64,000 nt of DNA from Rhizobium favelukesii (GTDB lineage: Bacteria > Pseudomonadota > Alphaproteobacteria > Rhizobiales > Rhizobiaceae). Under the pieces are notes generated by a model. It saw nothing but the letters and a program-made list of their open reading frames with translations. It searched no databases and was not told the DNA's origin. Shown here in pieces: positions 36,108 through 42,743 of this stretch. The stretch lies in the NCBI RefSeq assembly GCF_000577275.2, contig NZ_HG916852.1, forward strand, positions 3,501,001 to 3,565,000. Reading direction: 5' to 3'. Positions within the stretch are counted from its first letter, which is position 1. Each line of letters begins with the position of its first letter. Position numbers and translations under genes: made by a program.

Positions 36108-39100
36108 ATGTCGATCAAAGCCAGCATCTATCACCTGACGCACTACAAATACGACAAGCCGGTCCGCCTCGGACCCCAGATCATCCGCCTGAAACCGGCC
36201 TCGCATTCGAAGACGCGGGTGATCAGCCACGCGCTGAAGGTCTCGCCGTCCAACCATTTCGTGAACCTGCAGCAGGATCCCTACGGCAATTATCTCGCCC
36301 GCTACGTCTTTCCGGACCCGGTCACCGAATTCAAGATCGAGGTCGATCTCGTCGCCGACATGACGGTCTACAATCCCTTCGATTTCTTCATCGAAGAGAG
36401 CGCCGAGACGTGGCCCTTCTCCTATCCCGAAGACATCAGGGACGATCTGAAGATTTACATGCAGCCGCAGCCGATGGAACCGGCGCTGGCAGCTTACGTC
36501 TCCGGCATCGACCGCACGCCGGTGCGCACCATCGATTTCATCGTCGGCCTCAACGCCCGCCTGAAGGAAGACATCGAATACGTCATCCGCATGGAGCCCG
36601 GCGTCCAGACGCCGGAGGAAACGCTGAAGCTCGCCCTCGGCTCCTGTCGCGATTCGAGCTGGCTGCTGGTCGAGATCCTGCGCAATCTTGGGCTCGCCGC
36701 CCGCTTCGTCTCCGGCTATCTCATCCAGCTGACACCCGACCTGAAGGCGCTCGACGGCCCCTCGGGGACTGAGGTCGATTTCACCGACCTGCACGCCTGG
36801 TGCGAAGTCTATCTTCCCGGCGCCGGCTGGGTCGGCCTCGACCCGACCTCCGGGCTGCTGACCGGGGAGAGCCACATCCCGCTCGCCGCCACCCCGCACT
36901 ATCGCAACGCCGCCCCGATCTCCGGTGCGCTCTTTGGCGAGGCCAACACCGAGTTCGCCTTCGACATGAAGGTGTCGCGCGTTGCCGAGCATCCGCGTAT
37001 CACCAAGCCTTTCTCCGACGACAGCTGGGACGAACTCAACGCACTTGGCGCAAAGGTCGATAGCATTCTTCAAGCCGAGGACGTTCGCCTGACCATGGGC
37101 GGCGAACCGACCTTCGTCTCGATCGACGACTTCGAATCCGAGGAATGGAACACCGCCGCCGTCGGCCCGACCAAGCGTGAGAAGGCAGACGAGCTGATCC
37201 GCAAGCTGCGCGAACGCTTCGCCCCCGGCGGCTTTCTGCATTACGGCCAGGGCAAGTGGTATCCGGGCGAAAGCCTGCCACGCTGGACCTTCTCGCTCTA
37301 CTGGCGCAAGGACGGCAAGCCGATCTGGCGAAACCCGGAGCTGATCGCCGGCGAAGGCAAGGACACCGGCGTCAAAGCCGAGGACGCCTCCAACCTGCTG
37401 AATGCGATCGCCCGCGAGTTGGCGATCGAGCCCGACATGGTACTTCCCGCCTACGAGGATCCGGCCGAATGGATCATCAAGGAAGGCAGCCTGCCGGAAA
37501 ATGTCGATCCGTCCAATTCCAAGCTGAAGGACCCGGAAGAGCGCAGCCGCATCGCCCGTGTCTTCGAGCGCGGCCTGACGACGCCGACCGGCTACATTCT
37601 GCCGGTTCAGGCCTGGAACGCCAGGGCATCGGGCCAGCGCTGGGTCAGCGAAAAATGGAAGACCCGCCGCGGCAAGATCTTCCTCGTGCCCGGCGACAGC
37701 CCCGTCGGCTATCGCCTGCCGCTCGGCACGCTGCCCTATGTGCCTCCGGCTCGCTTTCCCTATATCCACCCAGCCGATCCCTCGATCCCTCGCCAGCCGC
37801 TGCCAGAGGTCTTCGTTCCCGCCGGCCGCGCCATGCCCGAAGCGTCCCGCCACAGCGACGACAGCAGCCAGAGCCGCGTCGAGCAAACGATCGGCGAAAT
37901 CGGCGGCGCGGTGCGTACCGCCATTTCGGTCGAGCCGCGCGACGGAAGGCTCTGCGTCTTCATGCCGCCGGTCGAGCGCATTGAGGATTATCTCGAACTG
38001 ATCGCCGCCGCCGAAAATGCCGCGGCCGAGCTCGGCCTGCCCGTCCATATCGAAGGCTATTTGCCGCCGCAGGACGAGCGCATCAACGTCATCCGCGTCG
38101 CCCCCGACCCCGGTGTCATCGAGGTCAACGTCCATCCCGCGTCCAACTGGCAGGACTGCGTCGACATCACCACGACGGTCTATGAGGAGGCGCGCCAGAC
38201 CCGGCTTGGCGCCGACAAATTCATGATCGACGGTCGCCACACCGGCACCGGCGGCGGCAACCACGTGGTCGTCGGCGGCGCCAATCCAGGCGACAGCCCG
38301 TTCCTGCGCCGTCCCGACCTGTTGAAGAGCCTGGTGCTGCACTGGCAGCGCCATCCCTCGCTCTCCTACCTGTTCTCAGGCATGTTCATCGGCCCGACCA
38401 GCCAGGCGCCGCGCATCGACGAGGCCCGCCACGACAGCCTCTACGAGCTGGAGACGGCGCTTGCCCAGATCCCGGCGCCCGGCCACGGGGCGGCGCCGCT
38501 CCCATGGATCACTGACCGCCTGTTTCGCAACACGCTGATCGATGTGACGGGCAACACCCACCGCGCCGAAATCTGCATCGACAAGCTGTTCTCCCCGGAT
38601 GGCCCGACCGGCCGTCTCGGCCTCGTCGAGTTCCGCGGTTTCGAAATGCCGCCGAACGCCCGCATGTCACTGGCCCAGCAATTGATGGTGCGCGCGCTGA
38701 TCGCCCGTTTCTGGCAGAACCCGGCCGATGGCAGGTTCGTGCGCTGGGGAACGACGCTGCACGACCGCTTCATGCTGCCGCACTTCGTCTGGGCCGATTT
38801 CCTCGATGTGCTCGGCGATCTCAGGCAGAACGGCTTCGACGTCAGTCCCGAATGGTTCAAGGCGCAGCTCGAATTCCGCTTCCCCTTCTGCGGCGAGGTC
38901 GAATACGAGGGCTCGAAGCTGGAACTGCGCCAGGCGCTGGAACCTTGGAACGTCATGGGCGAGGAAGGGGCGATCGGCGGCACCGTGCGCTATGTCGACA
39001 GCTCCGTCGAGCGCCTGCAGGTTCGCCTCGAGACCAGCAATGCCTCGCGCTACACCGTCACCTGCAACGGCCGCACGGTGCCGCTGACGCCGACCGGCAC

Positions 39101-39428
39101 GGCGGGCGTCTCCGTCGCCGGCGTCCGCTTCAAGGCCTGGCAGCCGGCGTCGGGATTGCACCCGCTTTTGCCGGTCAGCACGCCGCTGACCTTCGACATT
39201 TATGATACGTGGTCGAAGCGTTCGATCGGCGGCTGCATCTATCATGTTGCCCATCCCGGCGGGCGTAGCTATGACACCTTCCCTGTCAATGGTAACGAAG
39301 CGGAAGCAAGGCGTCTGGCGCGATTCGAGCCGTGGGGGCATACGGCAGGCGGTTATATCCCGCGCGCTGAAACAGCGTCGCCGGAATTCCCGCTAACGCT
39401 GGATCTTCGACGACCGGTGGGAATTTAA
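36108..39428 (+). CDS. transglutaminase-like protein fused to DUF2126 (amidoligase-cluster peptidase/modifier)
   Basis: A 1106-residue cytosolic protein. Residues 1-300 hold a bacterial transglutaminase N-terminal beta domain and a transglutaminase-like catalytic core with a full triad: C180 (LGSCRDSSW), H229 (DLHAWCEVY) and D245 (GLDPTSG). From about residue 320 to the end is DUF2126, with the [11 protein letters not shown] and [17 protein letters not shown] motifs. Family knowledge (amidoligase systems described by Iyer, Aravind and colleagues) places this protein with a circularly permuted ATP-grasp ligase, an alpha-E domain and a second transglutaminase. Together they are predicted to build and trim a peptide or peptide-like tag. 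The start is ATG after AAGG; the reading frame is open further upstream without a ribosome site. Confidence 0.85.
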
Positions 39429-39441
39429 ACGTTAGGGTGAA

Positions 39442-41859: not shown

Positions 41860-41864
41860 CGCGC

Positions 41865-42743
41865 ATGCTCTACGACCTCTCGCTGCACATGGGCTACATC
41901 TACGACACGCCGGCCTCCGGCGCGCGCCACATCATGCGGCTGATGCCATTGTCGCTGCCGAACGGCCAACGGCTGATTGCCGGCTCGATCAAGGTCTTGC
42001 CGACGCCCGACGAGCAGGCGCACTTCATCGATTTCTTCGAACATCCGGCAACCTCCTTCATGCTGCGAGCGCCGCATGAGAAGCTGGACATTCGGATGCA
42101 GGCCCGCGTCCAGGTGGAGAGCCATTCGATCGCGGCGGATTTCTCCCCCGTGCTGGCGAAGCTTCCGGACGAGGTCGCGGGTGTCTGGTCGCTGAAGCCT
42201 GACGCTCCGCACCACTTTCTCGGCAATAGTCCCCGCCTGCTGGAAACGCGCGCGATCTCGGAATATGCGAGAGCCTGCGCCGAACCGTCATTGACCGTGC
42301 TGCAGATCGCGACTGCACTCTGCGCCAAAATCCATCAGGATTTCACCTACGACGCCGATGCGACGACTGTGGACACCACCCCGCTCGAAGCCTTCCAGTT
42401 GAGGAGCGGCGTCTGCCAGGACTTCGTCCATGTCATGATCCTTGCGCTGCGCAGCCTCGGCATTCCGGCAGGCTATGTCTCCGGCTTCCTGCGCACCATT
42501 CCACCGCCCGGCAAGGAACGGCTGGAGGGTGCCGACGCCATGCACGCCTGGGTCAGGGTCTGGTGCGGCGAAACGATCGGCTGGGTCGAACTCGATCCGA
42601 CAAACAATATCCCGGCCGGCACGGACCATATCGTCGTTGCCTATGGCCGCGACTACGCCGACGTCGCACCAGTCATCGGCGTACTGAAAAGCTACGGCGG
42701 CCAACGCGCCGTCCAGGCGGTGGATGTCATCCCGCTGGGATGA
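41865..42743 (+). CDS. stand-alone transglutaminase-like cysteine protease/amidase
   Basis: A 292-residue protein with the bacterial transglutaminase N-terminal beta domain (about 1-150) and catalytic core. The triad is C184 (RSGVCQDFVHV), H227 (DAMHAWVRVW) and D244 (VELDPTN). It is the third gene of the amidoligase operon. A GTG start at 41856 would overlap the stop of the ATP-grasp gene (GTGA); the ATG at 41865 is nine bases further. The protein probably hydrolyses or transfers an amide made by the ligase. The physiological target is not known for any member to my knowledge. Confidence 0.85.
   Translation: MLYDLSLHMGYIYDTPASGARHIMRLMPLSLPNGQRLIAGSIKVLPTPDEQAHFIDFFEHPATSFMLRAPHEKLDIRMQARVQVESHSIAADFSPVLAKLPDEVAGVWSLKPDAPHHFLGNSPRLLETRAISEYARACAEPSLTVLQIATALCAKIHQDFTYDADATTVDTTPLEAFQLRSGVCQDFVHVMILALRSLGIPAGYVSGFLRTIPPPGKERLEGADAMHAWVRVWCGETIGWVELDPTNNIPAGTDHIVVAYGRDYADVAPVIGVLKSYGGQRAVQAVDVIPLG

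Follow-up and report, generated by a model that had tools for sequence, protein, structure and literature searches.

A conserved, predicted pseudo-ligase and a candidate glutamine-synthetase-fold ligase in a transglutaminase operon of Rhizobium favelukesii

In a 64,000-nucleotide stretch of the Rhizobium favelukesii genome (contig NZ_HG916852.1, positions 3,501,001 to 3,565,000; hereafter the window), three open frames on the plus strand, P1, P2 and P3, encode a transglutaminase-fold domain fused to DUF2126, a circularly permuted ATP-grasp domain fused to an alpha-E domain, and a stand-alone transglutaminase-fold protein (Table 1). The initial annotation had made the ATP-grasp protein P2 the ligase of this operon and had assigned no role to DUF2126. 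That central ligase was probably mis-assigned: P2 keeps the ATP-grasp fold but seems, from alignments, to have lost catalytic residues that are conserved in a stand-alone paralogue, and DUF2126, with its predicted glutamine synthetase (GS) fold, is the better ligase candidate. We favour a reading, which we regard as evenly poised between right and wrong, in which the operon is an amide-bond making-and-breaking module with a pseudo-ATP-grasp–alpha-E scaffold, working beside an intact second enzyme set in the same genome. The initial interpretation as a whole is partly supported.

Operons of this type were reportedly predicted by Iyer et al. in 2009 to form a peptide-tagging system of ATP-grasp, GS-like, alpha-E and N-terminal nucleophile (NTN) hydrolase proteins, and the window operon is a further member of this known, predicted kind. 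It shares the circularly permuted ATP-grasp fold, alpha-E, transglutaminase and GS-like families with that system, and differs from it in that its ATP-grasp half is degenerate and forms one chain with alpha-E, DUF2126 shares a chain with a transglutaminase domain, and the peptidase Anbu was not detected in the genome. As the initial annotation had stated, no defined substrate for the operon type emerged from the literature searched; nor did any paper naming DUF2126 or a degenerate ATP-grasp in this system, the 2009 work lying outside that search.

The ATP-grasp half of P2

Pfam matched P2 to CP_ATPgrasp_2 (PF14403, 464 bits) and Alpha-E (PF04168, 196 bits), in agreement with the domain content first proposed, and the solved structure nearest to it by sequence was 3n6x_A (E 1.4e-72). 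We compared 34 ATP-grasp domains fused to alpha-E as in P2 (A-type) with 19 stand-alone ATP-grasp proteins (B-type), taken from these same loci and the second set of the window genome (locus L008). The two types have many residues in common, yet A-type lacks a group of polar residues that B-type conserves. As a reference we used the E. coli glutathionylspermidine synthetase/amidase (GspS, gene gss), on whose sequence the identities of R316, D318, E330, N332, K498 and K533 were confirmed; the structure literature assigns metal- and ATP-binding roles to D318, E330, N332, K498 and K533. All 19 B-type proteins carry the GspS residue at each of these five positions, whereas in A-type the aspartate at D318 is present in 28 of 34 (Glu171 in the window), the glutamate at E330 in one (Ala184), the asparagine at N332 in none (Arg186), the lysine at K498 in one (Arg342) and the lysine at K533 in nine (Gly389, in a stretch where the alignment is uncertain). 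The glycine-rich loop that follows the K533 position is also missing from A-type. In place of the B-type EDN, all 120 listed P2 homologues (the window's own included) have ADR, SDR or TDR, and among seven later A-type loci with the motif printed, the glutamate was kept in one (L193) and the asparagine in none. Judged by the metal- and ATP-binding residues of an active ATP-grasp ligase, P2 falls short, whereas the L008 paralogue has all five.

B-type and GspS were matched by eye: in both, the motifs D-x(11-12)-E-x-N, K, and VK followed by a glycine-rich stretch come in this order, and the residue numbers are those of the GspS structure literature. A single branch with 100/100 support separates A- from B-type in a tree, in which the A-type end branches look longer. 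Median ratios of nonsynonymous to synonymous substitution (dN/dS), against up to 10 rhizobial loci, were 0.19 for the ATP-grasp half, 0.08 for alpha-E and 0.12 for DUF2126; the two transglutaminases had values of 0.175 and 0.16, and the neighbouring glgB one of 0.07. Given the low values of both of its halves, P2 is not a decaying gene. The simplest reading of these alignments is that the P2 ATP-grasp is a conserved pseudo-enzyme carrying alpha-E. The alpha-E motif residues are conserved in A- and B-type alike, and alpha-E has the lowest dN/dS in the operon. The domain contains GRYIERAE around residue 537 and the similar GRHIERG around residue 670, a possible sign of internal duplication. An AlphaFold2 model of P2 built on 62 close homologues was poor (mean predicted local distance difference test score, pLDDT, 43.8), with alpha-E mostly helical.

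The residue losses bear directly on the possibility that two active ligases, P2 and the GS-like DUF2126, build or attach a peptide tag, which the transglutaminases edit. The Anbu operon is described with the same three families, ATP-grasp, alpha-E and transglutaminase (PMC6376114, PMC5666114), and the ATP-grasp of the Yersinia operon is described as freeing phosphate from ATP (PMC6376114). The Yersinia enzyme, however, is described as a separate protein in the Anbu operon and is probably B-type, and its phosphate release fits an active B-type; with counterparts of GspS E330, N332 and K498 in only one, none and one of 34 P2-type domains, and the glycine-rich loop gone, we consider such two-ligase tagging unlikely.

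DUF2126 and the transglutaminase-fold domains

In P1, Pfam recognised Bact_transglu_N (84.8 bits), Transglut_core (59.4 bits) and DUF2126 (1335 bits), and in P3 Bact_transglu_N (59.4 bits) and Transglut_core (71 bits); NCBIfam gave no match for P1, P2 or P3 at E up to 0.001. The full Cys-His-Asp triads described initially are borne out, C180/H229/D245 of P1 showing no variation in an alignment of 32 sequences, the window's among them, or in another of 73, and C187/H230/D247 of P3 none in one of 26. By sequence, both would be transglutaminase-fold cysteine enzymes, predicted to act as hydrolases or transferases. Among public P1 homologues, several bear the name 'IMP dehydrogenase', for which the P1 domains give no support.

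In an AlphaFold2 model of P1, DUF2126 has the GS catalytic fold by fold comparison, and the structural matches of the model include gamma-glutamylmethylamide synthetase and 1-naphthylamine GS. Alignments revealed many invariant charged residues in DUF2126, among them E333, E672, H719, R819, E841 and R843, which probably match GS active-site residues. We infer that DUF2126 is an active ligase and, from the model, consider it a likelier candidate than the ATP-grasp of P2. Like the gss product of E. coli, P1 would then unite a predicted amidase and a ligase on one chain; in contrast to gss, the fused ligase has a GS fold, and the ATP-grasp domain lies on another chain with its motifs lost.

Two other roles for DUF2126 deserve consideration. 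It could make gamma-glutamyl-type amides of amines that the transglutaminases open, as a nitrogen-scavenging pathway resembling gamma-glutamylmethylamide synthetase (GmaS) or naphthylamine GS, with no protein tagging; the structural matches just named favour this, as does the increase of Anbu in nitrogen-limited P. putida described in PMC5666114 and PMC6376114, and we give it a minor share of the probability. Alternatively, DUF2126 could be a non-catalytic GS-fold sensor in a proteolysis or envelope-editing module driven by the two cysteine enzymes only. The intact triads of P1 and P3, the inactive appearance of the P2 ligase half and the recurrence of partner peptidases (Anbu or Peptidase_Mx) are consistent with this, but a dead domain would hardly need so many invariant charged residues, and we judge it improbable.

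Table 1. Features of the operon, in positions of the window
Feature	Position	Strand	Description	Basis
P1	36108..39428	+	1106 aa; transglutaminase-fold domain (about residues 1-275) fused to DUF2126 (278-1101)	Pfam, alignments, AlphaFold2 model
P1 catalytic Cys180	36645..36647	+	with His229 (36792-36794) and Asp245 (36840-36842)	codons checked
DUF2126	36939..39410	+	predicted GS-fold carboxylate-amine ligase	
P2	39442..41859	+	805 aa; circularly permuted ATP-grasp fused to alpha-E	Pfam
P2 ATP-grasp-fold domain	39733..40869	+	residues 98-476; degenerate, predicted pseudo-ligase	
P2 A184, R186	39991..39999	+	E and N in paralogue (GspS E330, N332)	
P2 R342	40465..40467	+	K336 in paralogue (GspS K498)	
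P2 G389	40606..40608	+	K383 in paralogue (GspS K533); alignment uncertain here	
Alpha-E of P2	41011..41853	+	conserved W534, R537, E540, R541; second motif G669, E673, R674	
P3	41856..42743	+	295 aa; stand-alone transglutaminase-fold protein, triad C187/H230/D247	Pfam

A second enzyme set and partner peptidases

The window genome (7.57 Mb, 62 contigs, rated 100% complete), whose closest named relatives are Rhizobium species, holds a second alpha-E gene, found by the search for further copies that the initial annotation had proposed. This gene belongs to the L008 set of B-type ATP-grasp, alpha-E and transglutaminase, ~535 kb from the operon and on its contig. The operon may therefore not be self-sufficient, since an intact set of these enzymes is encoded elsewhere in the genome. 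The order of the L008 genes is that of the Yersinia bercovieri Anbu operon, described as ATP-grasp, alpha-E, transglutaminase and Anbu (PMC6376114); L008 differs in having no Anbu, and the window operon in having DUF2126 and two transglutaminase domains. A Yersinia pull-down with Anbu as bait is reported in the same paper to have recovered no specific partner among the operon proteins, a set that did not include P1, P2 and P3 (PMC6376114). A fourth Bact_transglu_N/Transglut_core protein stands alone on another contig (L009 7477-8367).

The absence of Anbu noted initially for the window extends to the whole genome. Our label Anbu rests on profile and Pfam matches, gene context and an N-terminal motif. 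The only PF00227 match in the genome was HslV, with an HslU-like AAA protein ~0.5 kb downstream. As PF00227 can miss Anbu, six Anbu proteins encoded close to the system were used to build a profile, which had no match in the window genome (8 of 11 first-look candidates scored) or in its three sampled congeners. PF00227 itself matched two of three Anbu-like proteins weakly (E 8.9e-7 and 1.5e-5) and the third, L169, not at all, so that Pfam-based surveys may undercount Anbu. The L169 protein (11269-12048) is 44-46% identical to other members of the Anbu profile.

Among 299 sampled Pseudomonadota genomes, with family tallies joined on the assumption that the same 299 were drawn each time, alpha-E was found in 156, Anbu in 101, DUF2126 in 84 and Peptidase_Mx in 46. 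Nearly all carriers of the other families also had alpha-E (DUF2126 84/84, Anbu 100/101, Peptidase_Mx 45/46), in co-occurrence statistics (Fisher) that ignore the kinship of the genomes. Anbu is not universal in the system, being present in 100 of the 156 alpha-E genomes and undetected in 56. The best alpha-E match per genome had E ~2e-60 or better, compared with 3e-58 for the A-type domain of the window, and a B-like alpha-E is therefore probably present in all alpha-E genomes.

Peptidase_Mx (PF15887, with zinc ribbon PF10005) is a recurrent neighbour of the system in five genome families; four of the five neighbour proteins were scanned for the family, and all four matched. Counting 48 places at E 9.4e-79 or better, with eight weak or partial ones excluded, at least 13 copies lie 0.8-7.2 kb (start to start) from alpha-E, DUF2126 or Anbu. 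Three of the 46 Peptidase_Mx genomes (G200, G217, G287) have weak or partial matches only, and 42 of the remaining 43 have alpha-E. The window genome has one unlinked copy (L190, G000 C59:1057911), with an HEAGH motif and a zinc ribbon-like start. Both peptidases occur in 34 of the alpha-E genomes, Peptidase_Mx only in 11, Anbu only in 66 and neither in 45. Peptidase_Mx as a general replacement for Anbu was rejected on the 34 genomes with both; as the two often co-occur, it is a candidate for a peptidase that acts in addition to Anbu and not in its place. The literature searched, which did not include Iyer et al., held no paper linking Peptidase_Mx to the system.

A pairing of an ATP-grasp protein with a peptidase is also known from the Pseudomonas rlo/rim operons, in which RimK/RloC is an ATP-grasp and RimB/RloA a peptidase, and of RimK and RimB one adds glutamates and the other removes them; the families of both proteins differ from those here, and no DUF2126 or alpha-E is described for rlo/rim in the available text (PMC12239564). 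The transglutaminases described in PMC12096838 and PMC12239564 are other, inactive ones.

Operon context and proposed module

The genes are as tightly packed as first described, with 13 bases between P1 and P2 and a four-base overlap of P2 and P3; this spacing supports co-expression and does not, as had been proposed, argue for a physical complex. The strict order transglutaminase, DUF2126, ATP-grasp, alpha-E, second transglutaminase is kept in 76 of 80 rhizobial loci, the best 80 of at least 589 related loci and a biased set, all being Rhizobiaceae or Rhizobiales by title. In a wider set of 40 DUF2126 loci picked from the 299 genomes, the ATP-grasp–alpha-E fusion lies on the same stretch as DUF2126 in 36, B-type genes in 21 and both in 19. 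The recurring three-gene arrangement is thus confirmed as a real, widespread bacterial operon and not chance.

Adjoining the operon upstream (33940-35996) are a response regulator and a 2CSK_N-type sensor kinase, both present in 31 of the 80 rhizobial loci (identity >=45%). On the 3' side, a TadE/G-like gene with a von Willebrand A domain (42843-44102) recurs in 77 of the 80 and glgPBC (44371-50320) in 68, and TadG-like and glg genes also stand beside the ATP-grasp–alpha-E fusion and second transglutaminase on S. meliloti pSymB. We treat this neighbourhood as rhizobial synteny. A functional link to glycogen was rejected, no glycogen gene having been noticed among the clusters common to at least three families in 41 wider loci, most of them assessed on just the first part of a single sequence. 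With a sigma-54 consensus, no site was found near the operon (two matches in the window against 2.0 expected), and 35900-43000 held no sigma-70-like promoter and no excess of terminators over shuffled sequence. In an S. meliloti nodule-competitiveness association study, one of the SM11 pSymB regulatory-region hits is linked to a COG2308 gene, from the group of circularly permuted ATP-grasp proteins that includes P2 (PMC8407117); judged from the replicon, our guess is that this is the A-type gene.

In the module that we favour, DUF2126 would couple a carboxylate, activated as its acyl phosphate, to an amine, and the transglutaminase-fold domain of P1 would hydrolyse or transfer the same amide, much as GspS joins amidase and synthetase, with P3 as a second amidase/hydrolase or transferase. 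Rather than working as a ligase, P2 would be a scaffold for binding or regulation and would present alpha-E, its two parts binding substrate, product or the B-type ligase, and active ATP-grasp chemistry would be supplied by the intact B set ~535 kb away. We infer joint action of the operon and the second set, with a peptide or peptide-like amide as the product. Extended to the whole DUF2126-linked branch, the proposal is more tentative and, in our estimate, falls just short of an even chance: the ATP-grasp half would be a conserved pseudo-ligase scaffold or regulator, GS-fold DUF2126 and a distant or neighbouring intact ATP-grasp would do the chemistry, and Peptidase_Mx would be a further, unrecognised peptidase, at work in genomes without Anbu, this one among them.

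Several observations weigh against this reading. Comparisons with hhalign were not significant for DUF2126 against five GS paralogues (probability 0.6%) or for the B-type ATP-grasp against E. coli GspS (0.1%); the evidence for both links is thus fold comparison or motif order judged by eye. The four Foldseek matches at E up to 0.001 were all transglutaminase-fold, and GS rows appeared only at E 0.039-0.089 in a list that also held chance rows. An E330-like residue is kept in one of the 34 A-type domains (L180) and at the later locus L193, a lysine stands at the K533 position in nine of the 34, and unusual activity can persist in pseudo-enzymes. The association with DUF2126 is also incomplete. 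Of the 79 DUF2126 genomes covered, 71 have the A-type fusion (70 with >850 bits; in G050 it is in pieces, read as A-type in L173), leaving eight without it, some of them incomplete; conversely, the fusion can persist without DUF2126, as on S. meliloti pSymB (L200 8938-12239), where fusion and second transglutaminase have no adjoining DUF2126, and in nine (>770 bits) to 11 (two more being ambiguous, at 604-623 bits) of the 72 alpha-E genomes without a DUF2126 match. The fusion also occurs in two genomes of the same family as S. meliloti (G194, G197), neither of which matched DUF2126.

This enzyme set is widespread among the genomes surveyed, yet we found no known product for it. If the ATP-grasp of P2 is indeed dead, assays belong on DUF2126 and on the stand-alone ATP-grasp, with the fusion as a possible binding scaffold, and Peptidase_Mx offers a concrete second candidate peptidase for genomes without Anbu.

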